A stretch of DNA of 64,000 bases from assembly GCA_016215115.1 (NCBI GenBank), contig JACRLN010000015.1, positions 1-64,000 of the forward strand, in the 5' to 3' direction. The position numbers and the translations under genes were made by a program. The notes under the pieces were generated by a model. It made no database searches, was not told where the DNA came from, and worked only from the letters and a program-made list of their open reading frames with translations. Shown one piece after another: positions 53,313 to 62,965 of this stretch (position 1 is its first letter; the number at the start of each line of letters is the position of its first letter). Source of the stretch: Nitrospirota bacterium (GTDB taxonomy: Bacteria > Nitrospirota > Thermodesulfovibrionia > UBA6902).

Positions 53313-53714
53313 ATGTATGTAACAAGAAAAGCAGATTATGCCATTCGATGCGTTCTTTATCTGTCGAGACATGTTGAGCGGGTGGCAAGTGTTGAAGAGA
53401 TTTCAGGGGAAATGTCTGTCCCGAGAACCTTTCTCGCTAAAATCCTCCAGCGTCTCTTGAAGACAGGTATTGTGAAGTCTATCCGCGGAGTGAAAGGAGG
53501 GTTTCAACTTGCGAAGAAACCTCAGGACATTAACCTTCTTGAGGTGATAGAGACTATCCAGGGATCCTCTGCGGCAAATATATGTGCGATTGATAAAAGG
53601 TTGTGCAAACTCAGCAACACCTGCAGTGTTCACCCTGTTTGGGTGGAAATAAGAGGAATGGTAGAGAAAAGACTGAGAGAAGAAAATTTCGAAACATTGT
53701 TAAAGAAGAAATAA
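53313..53714 (+). CDS. Rrf2-family transcription regulator, probable Fe-S sensor
   Basis: 133 residues. MYVTRKADYAIRCVLYLSRH and the winged helix VPRTFLAKILQRLLKTGIV are Rrf2/IscR/NsrR hallmarks. Three cysteines (NICAIDKRLCKLSNTC) sit where IscR and NsrR bind a cluster. It probably senses NO, oxygen or Fe-S status. It lies directly upstream of ccoN, and a half-site of its own operator recurs at 53745-53755, so it may control the oxidase. Confidence 0.9.
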   Translation: MYVTRKADYAIRCVLYLSRHVERVASVEEISGEMSVPRTFLAKILQRLLKTGIVKSIRGVKGGFQLAKKPQDINLLEVIETIQGSSAANICAIDKRLCKLSNTCSVHPVWVEIRGMVEKRLREENFETLLKKK

Positions 53715-53857: not shown

Positions 53858-55255
53858 ATGAGCGATTATCAATACGATAATGAGACAGTGAAAGGTTTTA
53901 TTATTTCCTCCATCTTCTGGGGAGTGGTGGGTATCCTTGTAGGTCTCTGGATATCCATACAGATGTGGGCGCCCTCGTGGAATATCCCGCCTTATTTTAC
54001 TTTTGGAAGATTGAGGGTAGTACACACAAACGGTCTTGCGTTTGGACTTGGGATAGGAGCGATCTTCGGCATTTGCTACTACATTACGATGAGACTTACG
54101 AAGAGGCCGCTTTTATTCCCCAAACTCGCAAGGTTTCATCTGTATCTTTTTAATGCAGCGATAGCCCTTGCTGCATTAAGTTTATTTGCGGGGATGAACC
54201 AGTCCCTTGAATATGCGGAGCTGGAATGGCCTCTGGATGTCGGCGTTGTCATCCTATGGGTTATCTTTGCGGTTAACATCTTCGGTACGATAATAAAGAG
54301 GAAAGAGGAGCAGATGTATATATCCCTCTGGTTTATCATCGCAACGGTTATTACAGTTGCTGTGCTGTATATCGTTAATAATCTGTCTATCCCTGCTGGG
54401 CTGTTCAAGTCATACCATCTCTTTGCCGGCGTAAACAGCGCTAACGTTGAATGGTGGTACGGGCATAATGCGGTCGGTTTTATATTTACAACGCCGATAC
54501 TCGCAATGTTCTACTACTTCCTGCCGAAGTCAACAGGGATCCCGATATACAGCCACAGGCTTTCCATTATTGCATTCTGGTCGCTGGTGTTTGCATATCT
54601 GTGGACAGGAGCGCACCATCTGATTTATACACCCCTTCCCGACTGGATACAGACCCTCGCCATAGTATTTACAATTTTTCTGATTGCGCCTTCATGGGGC
54701 TCTGTTGTGAATGGTTTTTATACTGTAGGAACCGATTGGTCCAAGATGCAAACAAATTACCTTACAAAGTTTTTTATTCTCGGGATAACCTTTTACGGTC
54801 TGCAAACAATACAGGGACCTACTCAGGGCTTAAGGGTTGTAAGCCAGTTAATCCATTACACCGACTGGGTGCCGGGACATGTACATATGGGCACCATGGG
54901 CTGGGTAACCATGACAGTGGCAGCCTCCATCTATTACATCATTCCCAGGATATATGACACGGAGATATACAGCGAGAAGATCGCTAACACACACTTCTAT
55001 CTCGTTTTGATAGGACAGCTTATATTTTCTATTACTATGTGGATTACAGGTATTCAGCAGGGCGCTCTGTGGAAGGCAGTAAATCCTGACGGCAGCCTCA
55101 AATATACGTTCATGGAAACTCTTGTGAGGAATTACCCGTTCTGGAAGATGAGGACTGTAGGCGGCGTGATATTTACTATCGGTATGCTATTTTTTATTTA
55201 TAACATTTTTATGACCATACGCAAGGGTAAGTCCCTTGCGGCGGCAAAGGCATAA
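53858..55255 (+). CDS. ccoN: cbb3 cytochrome oxidase subunit I
   Basis: 465 residues, twelve membrane helices. Haem and copper ligands: RVVHTNGLAFGLG (haem b), WWYGHNAVGF (CuB His), TGAHHLIYTPLPDW (two CuB His), and DWVPGHVHMGTMGW (haem ligands). It reduces O2 to water at low oxygen and pumps protons. A strong AAGGAGG site precedes the ATG; ccoO follows after 13 nt. Confidence 0.95.
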   Translation: MSDYQYDNETVKGFIISSIFWGVVGILVGLWISIQMWAPSWNIPPYFTFGRLRVVHTNGLAFGLGIGAIFGICYYITMRLTKRPLLFPKLARFHLYLFNAAIALAALSLFAGMNQSLEYAELEWPLDVGVVILWVIFAVNIFGTIIKRKEEQMYISLWFIIATVITVAVLYIVNNLSIPAGLFKSYHLFAGVNSANVEWWYGHNAVGFIFTTPILAMFYYFLPKSTGIPIYSHRLSIIAFWSLVFAYLWTGAHHLIYTPLPDWIQTLAIVFTIFLIAPSWGSVVNGFYTVGTDWSKMQTNYLTKFFILGITFYGLQTIQGPTQGLRVVSQLIHYTDWVPGHVHMGTMGWVTMTVAASIYYIIPRIYDTEIYSEKIANTHFYLVLIGQLIFSITMWITGIQQGALWKAVNPDGSLKYTFMETLVRNYPFWKMRTVGGVIFTIGMLFFIYNIFMTIRKGKSLAAAKA

Positions 55256-55268
55256 GGGAGGTGAGAGA

Positions 55269-56204
55269 ATGACAGGTGAAATATACAGAAAACCGGTAAT
55301 GTTTGCGATAGTCGCCACTGTCGTTATCCTTATTGGTACGGCAATAACCATGTTTATTCCCATGCTGACGCCCCAGATGCATCCAAGGCTTGAAAATCTG
55401 AAACCTTTTACGGCCCTTCAGCTTGCGGGAAGGGATATATATCAGAGAGAGGGCTGCAATAACTGCCATACCCAGACCGTCAGGCCCCTCAAGACCGAAG
55501 TAATGCGATACGGTGAATATTCAAAAGCAGGTGAATTCGCCTATGACCATCCGTTTTTATGGGGTTCAAAGAGGACGGGGCCCGACCTTGCAAGGGTCGG
55601 CGGGAAATATCCCGACGCATGGCACTACAGGCATTTTGAAAACCCGCAGGCCTTCTTTGCAGAATCCAACATGCCTGTTTACGAATGGCTTAAGGACAAC
55701 AAACTTGATCCGGCAAAAATTGAAGCGCATATGAAGGCGCTCGGATTCCCATACATACCTGAAGATATTGAATTGCTGAAAGACAAGACCGAGCTTGATG
55801 CGCTCGTTTCATACGTTCAGGTTATAGGCGCCTCGGTTACAAAAAAAGCTGTACCGATGGCAACGCCGGCAGTTACGGAGAAAGAGCACATTTCAAATCC
55901 GTTTGCCGGTGATCCGAAAGCAATCGCAGCAGGGAAAAATATCTTTGCTAAAAATTGCGCTGTTTGTCACGGGGAAAATGCACAAGGCGACATCGGTCCG
56001 AACCTTACGGATAAAGCATTTTTATATGCAGAAGGAGATGTGCCGGATGACGATTATTTTGAGATTATCAACAACGGAACGACCCCCGGCATGATTGAAG
56101 AGGGGCGTACGGCAAAAGGCGGTATGATCCCGTTCAAAGACACTTTAAGCAAAGACGAAATATGGTCGGTAGTCGCTTATATAAGGTCAATACAGGGGAA
56201 ATAG
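55269..56204 (+). CDS. ccoO: CcoO fused to a CcoP-type cytochrome c domain
   Basis: 311 residues. N-terminal membrane helix, then CcoO haem motif REGCNNCHTQTVRPL (about residue 62). After about residue 200 a second cytochrome c domain follows: FAKNCAVCHGENAQGDIGPN (about 236) and an axial-Met region GGMIPFKDTLSKDEIW. Normal CcoO has one haem, and CcoP carries two more. Here the second haem is attached to CcoO. ATG at 55269 follows GGAGGTGAGAGA; the earlier ATG at 55236 overlaps ccoN. Confidence 0.93.
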   Translation: MTGEIYRKPVMFAIVATVVILIGTAITMFIPMLTPQMHPRLENLKPFTALQLAGRDIYQREGCNNCHTQTVRPLKTEVMRYGEYSKAGEFAYDHPFLWGSKRTGPDLARVGGKYPDAWHYRHFENPQAFFAESNMPVYEWLKDNKLDPAKIEAHMKALGFPYIPEDIELLKDKTELDALVSYVQVIGASVTKKAVPMATPAVTEKEHISNPFAGDPKAIAAGKNIFAKNCAVCHGENAQGDIGPNLTDKAFLYAEGDVPDDDYFEIINNGTTPGMIEEGRTAKGGMIPFKDTLSKDEIWSVVAYIRSIQGK

Positions 56205-56262: not shown

Positions 56263-56469
56263 ATGGGTGAAGAAATTGACAACATAGAAAACTTTGAAGC
56301 AAAAGAGACATCTAAAAAAATCCCGATTGGATGGCAGTTGCTTTTCTGGGGATTGATTTTGTGGGGCATCTATTATTTTGTCTCTTATACCCCTGCGATT
56401 AGCGGATGGTCACAGGGAAAAGCGTATGAGGAGTCGATAGGTAGGGGCGAGGCGGTGCCTCGCCCTTGA
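56263..56469 (+). CDS. Standalone FixP_N/CcoP membrane anchor
   Basis: 68 residues, one membrane helix (WQLLFWGLILWGIYYFVSY). The N-terminus IDNIENFEAKETSKKIPIGW follows the CcoP N-terminal pattern (acidic start, helix, then aromatic-rich loop). No haem motif follows: the CcoP haem domain has been moved to CcoO. The last eight codons (GRGEAVPRP-stop) are supplied by the GTAGGGGCG palindrome at 56441-56466. Strong AGGAGGA site. Confidence 0.8.
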   Translation: MGEEIDNIENFEAKETSKKIPIGWQLLFWGLILWGIYYFVSYTPAISGWSQGKAYEESIGRGEAVPRP

Positions 56470-56497
56470 GGATTAAATTTAACAGGAGGTAATAAAA

Positions 56498-57118
56498 ATG
56501 TCAGAAGCATGTGCATGTTTAGGGTGTAATATCGGTGCAGCAGTCCCGGATTTTACACTGGAAACATATGAGCCGTCAAAAGGCGACTTTGGAGAAATAC
56601 GTCTTGAAACATTGAAGAAGAATAAAAAATGGACCATACTTTTTTTCTATCCCGCAGATTTTACTTTTGTCTGAGCTACTGAATTTGCTGCTCTGGCAGA
56701 GCAGTATGACAGATTCAGGAAAATGGGCGCAGAGGTCCTTACTGTAAGCAGGGATACGAAATTCGTCCACCTTGCATGGCAGAGGGAGGAGAAACAGCTT
56801 GCAAACGTGAAATATCCTATGGGGTCCGATACCACAGGAAAGCTCGCAAAGATGTTCGGAGTTTACGATGATGCGACCGGTCTTTCATTAAGAGGCACTT
56901 TTATTATAAGCCCTGAAGGCAAGCTGCTGAACGCAGAAGTCAATTACTTTAATATGGGAAGGAATATTGATGAGCTGATGAGGAAATTCAAGGCTAATCT
57001 CCATCTTTCAAAACACACTGCTGAAGGGTGTCCTGCAAAATGGAAGGATGAAGGTGATAAGACGCTGAAGCCTTCTGCGAAGTTAGTCGGACGGGTGCAC
57101 GAGGAGATGACTAAATAG
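56498..57118 (+). CDS. Selenocysteine peroxiredoxin (PrxU-like, AhpC/TSA family)
   Basis: 206 residues with an in-frame TGA at 56672-56674 (residue 59). The flanks read FFYPADFTFV-U-ATEFAALA, so the TGA replaces the peroxidatic Cys of the 1-Cys/2-Cys peroxiredoxin motif (FTFVCPTE). Both sides match the family and share one frame. The resolving-type Cys is in EGCPAKWK near the end. A bacterial SECIS-like hairpin follows the TGA. Cys-rich N-terminus (ACACLGC). It reduces hydrogen or organic peroxides, apt beside an oxidase. ATG at 56498 follows ACAGGAGGT. Confidence 0.9.
56679..56718 (+). promoter_or_regulatory. Bacterial SECIS-like hairpin
   Basis: CTGCTCT (56688-56694) pairs with AGAGCAG (56698-56704) around a GGC loop; an outer stem CTGAAT (56679-56684) pairs with ATTCAG (56713-56718). 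The loop begins 20 nt after the TGA and opens with GG, which fits the known rule of a guanine at the start of the apical loop at 16-37 nt. It lies within the coding region, as bacterial SECIS do. Confidence 0.75.
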
Positions 57119-57119
57119 A

Positions 57120-57258
57120 GTCTGTGTATAAATTGCAAGTTTTCAATTTCGTCATGCCCGAAGTCTGTAATCGGGCATCCAGAACTTGTTAAAAAAACTG
57201 GATTCCCGCTCAAAGGACTGCGGGAATGACGGTTCAATGTTTGAATTTATACACAGAC
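57120..57258. repeat. MITE-like composite with 15-bp terminal repeats
   Basis: GTCTGTGTATAAATT (57120-57134) and its exact reverse complement (57244-57258) enclose a GTCATGCCC-type repeat (57151-57230, ends CGGGAATGAC). It begins 2 nt after the selenoprotein stop. Confidence 0.7.
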
Positions 57259-57291
57259 ACTAAATAAGGATGAATGAGAAAGGATGACATT

Positions 57292-57469: not shown

Positions 57470-57613
57470 ATGAAACAGCAGGCGATTGCATATCTCCTTT
57501 TTGGCGCTGCCCTGGTTGTGCTCTTTGGTGTAATAATTTTTTTCTATTACTCAAAAGAACGGCACAAAAAGGTCGAAGAAGCCAAGTATAAAATGCTTGA
57601 TGACAAAGATTAG
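57470..57613 (+). CDS. CcoQ/FixQ-like small subunit
   Basis: 47 residues. One helix (IAYLLFGAALVVLFGVIIFF) followed by YYSKERHKKVEEAKYKMLDD, the pattern of CcoQ (helix, then charged tail). It stabilises the cbb3 complex. The start is at 57470; the frame to 57401 extends into the repeat. It overlaps ccoG by 17 nt. Confidence 0.7.
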   Translation: MKQQAIAYLLFGAALVVLFGVIIFFYYSKERHKKVEEAKYKMLDDKD

Positions 57614-58811
57614 GCGGATACAGCCGTGGAGACGGTTTGCCGAGGCTGTTCAGGCGGTTATCCTCATCGGGCTTCCTTTCCTTAAGATAAAGGGAGAAAG
57701 CGCTTTACGGTTTGATATCCCCACGCTGAGGCTCCACTTCTTCGGGACAAGCATCTGGATGGAAGAATTTTTTATTGTCCTCGGCGCTGTAATGTTTCTG
57801 ACATTCCTGATTGTATTTATTACATTGATGTTCGGCAGGATATGGTGCGGGTGGTTATGTCCCCAGACGGTGCTGATTGATTTTACGCGGTTTGTGGATA
57901 AGATGAAGTCAAAAGGGCTTTTATATAAAGCGGGCGCTCTTTCCTTAACGCTTTTAATCAGCATCCTAATTGCTGCAAATCTTATATGGTATTTTGTTCC
58001 CCCGTATGAATTCATTCCGCAGGTAATGGAAGACAGCCCCGGAAACGTGACAAGGGGTTTCTGGATAGTTTTGTCGGGGATAATATTTCTGAATTTTCTA
58101 CTGCTCAGGCACAGGTTCTGTGCGACTGTGTGTCCATACGCAAAACTGCAGGGCGTCATGTTTGATAATAAAACACTGGTAATATCATTTGACCCCCGGA
58201 GAAAGGAAGAATGCATGAAATGCATGGCATGTGTCAGGACCTGTCCTGTGGGGATTGACATAAGAGAGGGTTTGAGCTCCGCCTGTATAAACTGCGCTGA
58301 ATGCGTCGACGCCTGCGCAGAAATGATGGAACAAAAACAAAAGAAGTCCCTGATAGGCTACTTCTTTGGTTTACCCGGCGGAACAGGGAGGCTGTTGCGC
58401 CATAATGCCTTAATAACAGGTTCGGCAGCAGGCGCATTTCTTATCTTCCTGCTGTTCCTCTCATTTTCACGTGTCACCATTGATATGACCATCCTTCCGA
58501 ACTATGCTTCCCCTCCAAGGATAACAGGGGGGAAAACGGCTGTTAATTCCTATATCCTTTCTGTAAAGAACACCGGGAAATCGGATACGGAACTCTCGAT
58601 TAAAGCCGGAAGCACAGATGAGGCGGTAAAAGTACTGCCTGATAAAATTCTGCTTAAAGCCGGAGAATACAAGAAAGTCACTGTCTATGTCTTTGTCAAA
58701 AACTTCGGCAGTAAATCCCTGACAAAGCTGATTGATATATCCATCGAGTCAAGAGAAACCAATAAAATCATGGTGACCAGGAAAGCAAGTTTTATTATTC
58801 CGGAAGCGTAG
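57597..58811 (+). CDS. ccoG: CcoG/FixG polyferredoxin (copper reductase for cbb3)
   Basis: 404 residues. Membrane helices in the N-terminal half with an Fe-S type segment RIWCGWLCPQTVLIDFTRFV, then two 4Fe-4S clusters (CMKCMACVRTCPVGI, CINCAECVDACAEMM), and a C-terminal beta domain with NVFVKNFGS-like strands. CcoG reduces Cu(II) to Cu(I) for oxidase assembly. First step of the assembly cassette ccoG-FixH-YtkA-SafE-ccoI-ccoS. Confidence 0.94.
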   Translation: MMTKIRRIQPWRRFAEAVQAVILIGLPFLKIKGESALRFDIPTLRLHFFGTSIWMEEFFIVLGAVMFLTFLIVFITLMFGRIWCGWLCPQTVLIDFTRFVDKMKSKGLLYKAGALSLTLLISILIAANLIWYFVPPYEFIPQVMEDSPGNVTRGFWIVLSGIIFLNFLLLRHRFCATVCPYAKLQGVMFDNKTLVISFDPRRKEECMKCMACVRTCPVGIDIREGLSSACINCAECVDACAEMMEQKQKKSLIGYFFGLPGGTGRLLRHNALITGSAAGAFLIFLLFLSFSRVTIDMTILPNYASPPRITGGKTAVNSYILSVKNTGKSDTELSIKAGSTDEAVKVLPDKILLKAGEYKKVTVYVFVKNFGSKSLTKLIDISIESRETNKIMVTRKASFIIPEA

Positions 58812-59267
58812 ATGAAGATTTTGATTATTACTATAACGGTAGTGGTCCTTTCCGCTGTAATCGCCACGATTATTATCGGCAAACAAACTTTCGACGGTAC
58901 TGTCGAGGAAAAACCGTACGAACAAGGACTGTTATGGGATAAGATACGGAGCAACAAGTACGAATCAGGCTGGAGCGCGGTTATTAATAACAGGAAATTT
59001 AAGAAAGGAGACGATGTGGTCAGCATTTCTGTTTTTGATAAATACGGGAAGCCGCTTTCTGACGCCTCAGTCTTCTTAGTAGTCAGCCGGCCGTCCACAA
59101 CAACCTATGATAGAAATTACGAAACCATGAGACGTAGTGATAACTCTTACGCGGCAAAGGTCTATTTTCCTTTATTCGGATATTGGGATATAAAAATAAC
59201 AGTTGCTAAAAAAGGGGAAAGTGTTATATTTGAAGAAAGAATATTTGCAGAAGAGGAACAGCGATGA
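58812..59267 (+). CDS. FixH-like membrane-anchored protein
   Basis: 151 residues. One N-terminal helix (IITITVVVLSAVIATIIIG), then a short periplasmic beta-rich domain (WSAVINNRKFKKGDDVVSIS, VFDKYGKPLSDASVFLVVSR). FixH proteins act with the copper ATPase in cbb3 assembly. Starts immediately at the ccoG stop and ends overlapping the next gene by 4 nt. Confidence 0.82.
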   Translation: MKILIITITVVVLSAVIATIIIGKQTFDGTVEEKPYEQGLLWDKIRSNKYESGWSAVINNRKFKKGDDVVSISVFDKYGKPLSDASVFLVVSRPSTTTYDRNYETMRRSDNSYAAKVYFPLFGYWDIKITVAKKGESVIFEERIFAEEEQR

Positions 59268-59874: not shown

Positions 59875-60555
59875 ATGGAACTCGGCTATACTCTCGCATT
59901 TACAACAGGTCTGCTGGGAGGGTTTGGACATTGCATAGGTATGTGCGGCCCGCTTGTTGCTTCTTATACAATACGCAGCTCTCCATCTCTTCCTTATCGC
60001 TCATCAATTATAAACAACCTTCTCCCTCATCTCTTTTATAATATCGGACGTATCACCACATATATGTTCATAGGCGCTGTCATGGGTCTTGCAGGTTCGT
60101 TTGTTAACGTGGCAGGCAGGATCTCAGGTTTTCAGAATACAGTAGCAATTATTGCTGGGTTATTAATGATACTCATGGGGCTGAGTATTTCGGGTATTGC
60201 CGGAGGGATGGCGTGGCTCGAAAGACATAATAATCTCATCCTGAAGTTTGCCAAAAATATTTTACAGGGCGAATCCCTCTGGCAGTATTATCCTCTTGGG
60301 GCGCTTTTTGGTTTTCTCCCGTGCGGCCTGTCATACACGCTCTTTATGGCTGCCGCGGGAACAGGCAGCATGCTGTCCGGGATGCTTACAACTTTCTTCT
60401 TCGGAATCGGGACACTTCCCGCGTTACTGCTGTTCGGACTTGTTGCAGGATATTTGAGCCATAAGCTGAGAGGACTGCTGTACAAATTGTCCGGAATAAT
60501 TATTATTTTGATGGGGATATATTTTTTAGGTATCAATATTTATGCAAAAGTGTGA
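59875..60555 (+). CDS. SafE/UreH-type membrane protein (sulfite exporter/cbb3 assembly)
   Basis: 226 residues, six helices. FGHCIGMCGPLV is the metal-site motif of the DsbD_2/SafE family; GALFGFLPCGLSYTLFMAAA repeats it. In many genomes this gene sits with ccoI and ccoS and is needed for oxidase copper or thiol handling. It overlaps ccoI by 14 nt. Start at ATG 59875. Confidence 0.85.
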   Translation: MELGYTLAFTTGLLGGFGHCIGMCGPLVASYTIRSSPSLPYRSSIINNLLPHLFYNIGRITTYMFIGAVMGLAGSFVNVAGRISGFQNTVAIIAGLLMILMGLSISGIAGGMAWLERHNNLILKFAKNILQGESLWQYYPLGALFGFLPCGLSYTLFMAAAGTGSMLSGMLTTFFFGIGTLPALLLFGLVAGYLSHKLRGLLYKLSGIIIILMGIYFLGINIYAKV

Positions 60556-62965
60556 TCATTGCCTTCTGGAATTTCCGGATAGAGAAGCCGTGTACGATGA
60601 AGTCAAAGGGCAGAGGAAGGTCTTCTGCTGTAACGGCTGTAAGGGCATCTACCGGCTTATTAATGATGAGGGGCTTGGAGAATTCTATAAAAAGAGGGCT
60701 TCATGGGTTCCGGGGCCCGCAGAAGATAAACCTGTAGACACGGCTGCATTTAATGAACATATAATGCAGACAGGAAATGAACTTGAGACAGACATAATCC
60801 TTGACGGCATAAGGTGCGCTTCCTGTGTCTGGCTGAATGAAAAAATTCTCTACAGGACCATTGGCGTAACTTACGCCAATGTGAATTATGCCACACATAA
60901 AGCGAAGATACGATGGAATCCTCAGGAGACCGGGATTGATAATATTCTCGCAAGGATAAAATCCATCGGATACACACCCAAGCCCTTTACTTCAAAGGCT
61001 TATGAAAAAGAGATGGAAAACCGGAAGAGAGACCTCCTCATAAGATTCGGGACTGCCTCGTTTTTCTCAATGCAGCTTATGCTTTATGCCGTTGCACTAT
61101 ACGCAGGCTATTTTCAGGGGATCGATGAAGAGACTAAAAACATATTCCATTTAATCTCGCTTGTGCTGACAACACCGGTAGTGTTTTATTCGGGATGGCC
61201 TTTCATAAACGGGGCGGTGAGAGGGTTAAGGAATCTTCATTTCAATATGGACCTCCTCATTATGACAGGCTCCGGTTCGGCATATCTGTACAGCATCTAT
61301 GAGATGTTTTCAGGAGGCAAGGTCTATTTTGATACAGCCGCCATGATAATAACCTTAATCCTTCTCGGCAGATATATAGAAGCCGGGGCCAAAGGGAGGG
61401 CCTCACAGGCAATAACAAGGCTTCTATCTCTTAGTCCGAAAGAGGCACGGCGTATTGTAGGGGCAATTCATGAATTGCCCCTACGGAGTTCGGAGTCAAT
61501 TCCAATATCTTCCATAAAAGCCGGTGACATGATTGAGGTAATCCCAGGGGAGAAGATACCGCTTGACGGAGTTGTTATGGAAGGGTCATCAGAGGTTGAT
61601 GAATCCATGCTTACGGGTGAATCAAAACCTGTATCCAAGTCAGCAGGAAGCGATGTCTTCTGCGGGACGCAAAACCTTTACGGCAACTTTATATTTAAAG
61701 TCAATAAAACTGCAGGAGACACGGTACTCTCGCAAATCATAAAGACTGTTGAGGAGGCCCAGGCCAGGCGCGCCCCTGTGCAGACAACAGCAGACAGGGT
61801 TGTCGGGATTTTTGTCCCGGCAATATTATTATTGAGTTTTGCAACCTGGATGTACTGGATATTTCACGGCAGTTTCACAACAGATGCCGTAATGAACGCC
61901 GTCTCCGTGCTTGTGATAGCCTGTCCCTGTGCATTAGGACTCGCAACACCGCTTGCCATACTCGTCGGGACTACAAAGGGGGCGTCAAAAGGGATTCTGA
62001 TAAAAGGCGGAGACGTGATAGAGAAATCAAAAAATATTGGAATTATTGTCCTGGACAAAACAGGCACCCTTACAGAAGGCAGGCCCGTACTGAGCTCATT
62101 CAAAGGGATAGGGATGTCAGACACGGAGGCCTTGCGCCTTGCCTCCTCGCTTGAACGGCTCTCCGAGCATTCCATAGGAAAGGCGCTTGTCAGCGCATCA
62201 AAGGCACTTGAGCTGAATGACGTAACCGATTTTAAGGCATATCCCGGCAGAGGCCTTAAGGGTGTGATAAACGGGAAGCCCGTCCTGATTGGAAACAGGG
62301 AGTTTATGGAGTCAAATGGAATTGATGCTGCTTCTGACCGTAACCTGCTGTCTGAAATAGAATCCTCCGAATTGTCCGGGGCTACAGTAGTTTATTTATC
62401 GTATGAGGGGAATCTTGCCGGCACCTTCTCAGTCTCGGATACTGTGCGAAATGAGGCTGCGGATGTTGTTAAGATGTTAAAACATAAAGGGCTTGATGTG
62501 GCGATGATAACCGGCGATAATATTAAAACAGCGGCAGCGGTCGCGAGAGAGGCCGGTATAGATACGGTTAAGGCGCAGATGTCACCTGTTGAAAAGGCAG
62601 AAGAGATCAAACGGATGCAGGAGTGCGGAAGGCGGGTGATAATGGTGGGAGACGGAATTAACGACGCCCCTGCATTGGTGCAGGCTGATGTCGGGATAGC
62701 AATGGGAAGGGCGACTGACATAGCTCTTGAAAGCTCCGACATGGTTTTGATGAGAAACGACCTCAGGCTGCTTCCTTATGCCGTCAACCTTTCAAAAAAG
62801 ACATTCTCTGTTATCAGACAGAACATCTTCTGGGCATTTTTTTACAATGCAGTTGCAATACCGCTTGCCGTGGTGGGAATTCTTCACCCTATTGTTGCAG
62901 CCGGGGCTATGGCGCTAAGTTCATTAAGCGTTGTCGGAAATTCATTGAGGCTGCAAAGAGGCTGA
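60542..62965 (+). CDS. ccoI: CcoI copper-exporting P-type ATPase
   Basis: 807 residues. N-terminal Cys region (CDHCLLEF, VFCCNGCKGIYRL), then an HMA domain with IRCASCVWLNEK; eight helices with CPC in VIACPCALGLATPLA (about residue 460), phosphorylation DKTGTLTEG (about 504) and GDGINDAPAL. It delivers Cu(I) to the cbb3 oxidase. Residues 306-314 (VGAIHELPL) are encoded by the perfect 28-bp palindrome at 61457-61484, inside the actuator domain just before SIKAGDMIEVIPGE. The frame stays open. Confidence 0.95.
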   Translation: MQKCDHCLLEFPDREAVYDEVKGQRKVFCCNGCKGIYRLINDEGLGEFYKKRASWVPGPAEDKPVDTAAFNEHIMQTGNELETDIILDGIRCASCVWLNEKILYRTIGVTYANVNYATHKAKIRWNPQETGIDNILARIKSIGYTPKPFTSKAYEKEMENRKRDLLIRFGTASFFSMQLMLYAVALYAGYFQGIDEETKNIFHLISLVLTTPVVFYSGWPFINGAVRGLRNLHFNMDLLIMTGSGSAYLYSIYEMFSGGKVYFDTAAMIITLILLGRYIEAGAKGRASQAITRLLSLSPKEARRIVGAIHELPLRSSESIPISSIKAGDMIEVIPGEKIPLDGVVMEGSSEVDESMLTGESKPVSKSAGSDVFCGTQNLYGNFIFKVNKTAGDTVLSQIIKTVEEAQARRAPVQTTADRVVGIFVPAILLLSFATWMYWIFHGSFTTDAVMNAVSVLVIACPCALGLATPLAILVGTTKGASKGILIKGGDVIEKSKNIGIIVLDKTGTLTEGRPVLSSFKGIGMSDTEALRLASSLERLSEHSIGKALVSASKALELNDVTDFKAYPGRGLKGVINGKPVLIGNREFMESNGIDAASDRNLLSEIESSELSGATVVYLSYEGNLAGTFSVSDTVRNEAADVVKMLKHKGLDVAMITGDNIKTAAAVAREAGIDTVKAQMSPVEKAEEIKRMQECGRRVIMVGDGINDAPALVQADVGIAMGRATDIALESSDMVLMRNDLRLLPYAVNLSKKTFSVIRQNIFWAFFYNAVAIPLAVVGILHPIVAAGAMALSSLSVVGNSLRLQRG

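Follow-up and report, generated by a model that had tools for sequence, protein, structure and literature searches.

Peroxiredoxins that carry selenocysteine (Sec) in a TxxU motif form an accepted family (PMC13188914, PMC1794560, PMC1088965), and the initial annotation of the DNA studied here rightly treated them as a kind already known. They include PrxU (NF040737), and a Sec peroxiredoxin has been reported from Eubacterium acidaminophilum, as cited in PMC13188914. The bacterial SECIS element is recognized, as in PMC1088965, as a hairpin shortly downstream of the UGA with a G in a small apical loop. Our search of open-access papers turned up none that links a Sec peroxiredoxin to a cbb3 oxidase. 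We analyzed a 64,000-nucleotide stretch (the window; contig JACRLN010000015.1, positions 1 to 64,000) from a Nitrospirota genome of 2.82 Mb (57 contigs, 99.4% complete), whose close relatives are MAGs of the Thermodesulfovibrionia/Nitrospirota and in which the window's peroxiredoxin (Prx) has a single match. Its relatives were collected as 67 loci from a genome-contig scan, with more from a phylum scan of 246 genomes.

Catalytic codon, SECIS hairpin, and selenocysteine machinery

The features of the Prx gene are as follows.

56484..56489, + strand: AGGAGG ribosome-binding site, 8 nt before the ATG
56498..57118, + strand: Sec-containing AhpC-type peroxiredoxin, 206 aa with the TGA read as Sec; AhpC-TSA match (PF00578, 125.7 bits) and structural matches
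56672..56674, + strand: strongly supported Sec codon TGA (U59) at the peroxidatic position; codon shared by 77 distinct Sec rows
56688..56704, + strand: bacterial SECIS hairpin CTGCTCT-GGC-AGAGCAG; stem 56688-56694/56698-56704, loop GGC at 56695-56697; 99.1% paired
57029..57031, + strand: codon of the resolving Cys, C178, in the context GCPAKW; invariant in the alignment and matching the C-terminal Cys of AhpC

The sole interruption of the 206-codon frame is the TGA, and the frame is intact on either side of it. In the alignment with AhpC, U59 falls on the peroxidatic Cys, an in-frame UGA opposite a functional Cys of homologues being one mark of a selenoprotein, and the next residue is Ala in place of Pro. 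Conventional gene calling returned a 131-aa C-terminal fragment alone (56723-57118). On each of these points, namely exact replacement of the catalytic Cys, a frame open on both sides, the Ala, and a gene that automated annotation would split or miss, the initial annotation was borne out.

The hairpin that it had described, with a GG-opening loop beginning exactly 20 nt past the TGA, was also recovered, and its stem covaries in relatives. Across 76 distinct sequences, the 7-bp stem was paired in 99.1% of cells, including 15 compensatory cells in which both sides had changed (e.g. T-A to C-G and C-G to A-T), whereas sliding the stem partner along left only 18-68% of cells paired. None of 2000 shuffles matched the observed pairing, a count that we take as support and not as a probability, since the shuffles ignore relatedness. 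Codons +6 to +9 past the TGA have a synonymous entropy of 0-0.18 bits, compared with mostly 0.7-1.9 bits in the rest of the gene, which indicates selection on the nucleotide sequence beyond the protein. The single-sequence folding energy is mildly unusual (z of -0.8 to -2.6), and it is this comparative evidence, more than folding, that places the hairpin far beyond chance; judged by it, the hairpin at 56688-56704 is a SECIS. An Rfam scan of the window gave no SECIS match, which we did not count against the hairpin. In Cys-Ala genes, the same stem positions were paired in 45% of cells; by this measure, the Cys homologues have lost the SECIS pairing.

A search of the genome for selA, selB, selC, and selD, as the initial annotation had proposed, found all four: (i) selB (342 bits against a cut-off of 242) and selA (627 bits against 268) as adjoining genes on contig C51, (ii) a tRNA-Sec with anticodon UCA on contig C53, and (iii) two selD copies with an in-frame TGA in KAAGUA and KAGGUA, both of which are therefore selenoproteins themselves. 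One selD copy (L011) follows a formate dehydrogenase-like frame and precedes a TusA/YedF-like one, both named by eye; the other is L012. A second tRNA-Sec match over threshold (C8:4547) is a tRNA-Cys by ARAGORN, so that one selC is claimed. Among the genomes scanned, selB (counted at E <= 1e-60, tallied by hand) was present in 42 of 44 with a TGA copy vs 63 of the 202 without one (odds ratio 46 by Fisher's test; the genomes are related, and the p-value is not independent evidence). The two TGA genomes without a selB match were G038 (65% complete) and G215 (96%).

Together, the machinery, the conserved TGA, and the SECIS covariation strongly support the TGA as a real Sec codon in a peroxidase active site, as initially proposed. 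Of the refuting conditions named in the initial annotation, a genome without Sec machinery does not hold, and a Cys codon at 56672 finds no backing in the independent relatives, which read TGA. Because conventional annotation reads a stop there, the codon could instead be a sequencing error or mark a pseudogene broken at its active site, which is exceedingly improbable and is ruled out by the same codon in 77 rows, the compensatory SECIS changes, and the intact flanking frame. An in-frame TGA alone would also permit an ordinary amino acid under a changed genetic code; this reading, of equally negligible probability, is ruled out by the exact replacement of Cys, the Cys in nested homologues, the covarying SECIS, and the Sec machinery.

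The peroxiredoxin and its clade

The Prx has the sequence features of the Prx1/AhpC group, namely a PxxxTxx(C/U) motif and an Arg within an AhpC-TSA fold, together with a C-terminal resolving Cys. Across 23 aligned members, P52, T56, position 59, R132, and C178 are invariant; in the wider clade, nearly all members have the resolving Cys, L139 and L143 being without it. Structure prediction (pLDDT 84.5, pTM 0.82) gave a fold that matches AhpC and eukaryotic 2-Cys peroxiredoxins with TM scores of up to 0.82. Scores against two NCBIfam models fell well below their cut-offs: 191.7 vs 272 bits for the AhpC equivalog (TIGR03137) and 181.5 vs 270 bits for the PrxU equivalog (NF040737), the comparison with PrxU having been suggested by the initial annotation. 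The positive comparisons L120 and L121 passed the PrxU model with 403 and 365 bits. Other Nitrospirota have a second lineage of Sec peroxiredoxins (PrxU), represented by L120-L124, whose members read UATE or UPTE and lack the C-terminal resolving Cys.

TGA followed by an Ala codon occupies the catalytic site in 77 distinct rows, the window included, spanning Nitrospirota, Acidobacteriota, Rokubacteria, Methylomirabilota, Planctomycetota, Krumholzibacteriota, and others; independent relatives, among them another genome of the genus and a 94%-identical MAG, also have TGA at this codon. In our tree, seven Cys-Ala rows (L031, L038, L054, L069, L111, L112, and L155) are nested at five places within the Sec clade, and the Cys-Pro rows (L073, L076-L084, and L156) fall outside it. 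We infer repeated Sec-to-Cys loss from this nesting, the tree being a quick one with its root set by chosen outgroup rows. Since the seven nested Cys members retain Ala, this residue marks the clade and is no peculiarity of the window gene; it also occurs in some PrxU-lineage proteins. The clade offers a clean natural series (Sec, Cys with Ala, and Cys with Pro) in which the reasons for retaining Sec and the consequences of losing it can be studied. An N-terminal CxCLxC motif (56498-56530), which may be a metal site or an extra redox center, is limited to the closest relatives of the window protein (L024, L025, L026, L028, L029, L091, L092, and L093).

The cbb3 cluster and its recurrence

Family matches to the neighboring genes confirmed the placement of the Prx inside a cbb3 gene cluster.

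53313..53714, + strand: Rrf2-family regulator (TIGR00738, 114 bits, over the cut-off of 73.3)
53858..55255, + strand: CcoN-type cbb3 oxidase subunit I (TIGR00780, 526.8 bits, below the cut-off of 583; COX1)
55254..56204, + strand: CcoO with a fused C-terminal cytochrome c domain, a CcoO/CcoP-like fusion (FixO and Cytochrom_C)
56263..56469, + strand: FixP N-terminal anchor (fixP-N) without cytochrome domains (PF14715)
57470..57613, + strand: FixQ/CcoQ (PF05545)
57597..58811, + strand: CcoG-like protein (TIGR02745, 255.8 bits, below cut-off)
58812..59267, + strand: FixH/CcoH (PF05751)
60542..62965, + strand: CcoI/CopA-type copper P-type ATPase (TIGR01511, over cut-off)

The full run reads Rrf2, ccoN, the ccoO-cytochrome c fusion, fixP-N, Prx, fixQ, ccoG, fixH, a YtkA-like gene, a DsbD_2-like gene, and the copper ATPase gene; ccoN, ccoO, fixQ, and the assembly genes surround the Prx in the same direction, as in a cbb3 cluster. 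A 144-bp repeat (57116-57262) starts at the Prx stop codon and separates the Prx from fixQ; it is MITE-like, with 19-nt terminal inverted repeats, and the genome has 61 matches to it, some two dozen of them near full length.

The linkage recurs in other genomes. Joining two genome scans by hand gave 23 Nitrospirota genomes that have a TGA Prx as well as a strong ccoN; in seven of these, about 3 kb at most separates the two genes, and the seven show three arrangements in three lineages. The Prx lies between fixP-N and fixQ in L028, L131, and L132 also, and L024 shows the upstream half of this arrangement. In G058 and G063, it lies upstream of Rrf2-ccoN and runs in the same direction; in G113, it and Rrf2-ccoN are divergently oriented; and in G215, judged by coordinates and strand, it is next to ccoN but on the other strand. 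A rough binomial estimate with a 10-kb target gave P of about 2e-5 for cbb3 linkage arising by chance in at least 3 of 15 genera. In L025 and L139-L140, the neighbors of the Prx are a CcoG-like protein and a different gene of the haem-copper oxidase family; in L139 and L140, the Prx lies downstream of a haem-copper oxidase of the COX1 family and of the CcoG-like protein, and in L140 a multihaem cytochrome resembling NrfA, named by eye, comes next.

Most other Nitrospirota members sit in an island with Fur/PerR, desulfoferrodoxin (superoxide reductase), flavodiiron protein, rubrerythrin, hemerythrin, and FMN reductase, and most members from other phyla have neither context within the sequence examined. 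The initial annotation had taken the cbb3 placement to mean specific defence against oxidase by-products. Its linkage stands, as a real and recurrent association in a minority of genomes, but the specificity is not established, given that most Nitrospirota relatives occupy the O2-defence island; that most relatives lie away from cbb3 puts the oxidase link outside the core function.

Proposed role and comparison with described systems

We consider it highly probable that the gene encodes a SelB-decoded Sec-Cys peroxidase of the AhpC type, probably made with the cbb3 oxidase, that clears peroxide arising from O2 exposure. The UGA would be read as Sec by SelB and tRNA-Sec, with the SECIS downstream; Sec59, with P52, T56, and R132, would attack the peroxide; and Cys178 would resolve the selenenic acid to a Sec-Cys bridge, which thioredoxin and thioredoxin reductase would probably reduce again. 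Thioredoxin as the electron donor is our guess, suggested by a thioredoxin reductase-like gene on contig C9 together with the lack of any AhpF match over cut-off in the genome. As the gene lies between fixP-N and fixQ, the protein is probably produced while the cell uses its microaerobic oxidase, and would remove the peroxide that O2 exposure brings to a probably largely anaerobic organism.

How closely this role is bound to the oxidase can be read in more than one way. In a narrower form of the above explanation, to which we give about an even chance, the Prx is a general selenoperoxidase of O2 and peroxide stress, and its cbb3 position reflects shared O2-responsive control only. Most Nitrospirota relatives, beside PerR, superoxide reductase, flavodiiron protein, rubrerythrin, and hemerythrin, and the members of other phyla, mostly without either context in the sequence examined, agree with this; the recurrent and variously arranged cbb3 linkage in three lineages speaks against it at the P value given above, but is also compatible with shared control and so leaves the narrower form standing. 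It is possible, though we would not favor it, that the Prx is instead a dedicated cbb3 partner, shielding the oxidase or its assembly (haem, copper, and Fe-S maturation) from peroxide, since the family has several genomes (L028, L131, L132, and the window) that keep it between fixP-N and fixQ, and since G113, G215, G058, and G063 show other cbb3 linkages. Yet Prx and cbb3 are apart in 16 of the 23 genomes with both, and the oxidase works at the membrane, while no membrane anchor was seen in the Prx. Defence specific to oxidase by-products is possible, but a general defence against O2 and peroxide, expressed together with the oxidase, is the better fit; on the genomic evidence, the Prx is most likely an O2-exposure-response peroxidase that several lineages tie to cbb3.

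Since the only AhpC-type peroxiredoxin of the genome is a selenoenzyme that standard calling truncates, the peroxide defence of these uncultured bacteria would be misread. Should the link to cbb3 prove functional, the oxygen tolerance or microaerobic respiration of these Nitrospirota would be limited by their supply of selenium. The more far-reaching proposal, that a distinct, phylum-spanning clade of resolving-Cys Sec-AhpC proteins outside the AhpC and PrxU models has been recruited repeatedly as a functional part of the cbb3 module in several Nitrospirota lineages, making microaerobic respiration selenium dependent, is a tentative one that we regard as rather unlikely.

The window protein shares with the Sec peroxiredoxins of earlier surveys (PMC1794560, PMC1088965, PMC13188914) its general kind, a peroxiredoxin with T/SxxU; these surveys treat Prx as one family (assigned to COG1225 in the Sargasso set). 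With PrxU (NF040737), it shares the peroxidatic Sec in a TxxU motif and the AhpC-TSA fold, but its clade is a separate branch with another SECIS sequence and retains the C-terminal resolving Cys, where the five PrxU-lineage proteins examined have [MT]PSGW. With typical 2-Cys AhpC (TIGR03137; Salmonella AhpC 4ma9 and 1n8j), it has in common the fold, the PxxxTxxC layout, the Arg, and the resolving Cys, and differs in its Sec for Cys, in the Ala for Pro that follows, and in its score below the model's cut-off. The surrounding cluster resembles ccoNOQP-ccoGHIS in the usual order of its genes for ccoN, ccoO, fixQ, CcoG, FixH, and the copper ATPase, whereas the window combines a CcoO-cytochrome c fusion and a FixP cut to its anchor with an inserted selenoprotein gene.
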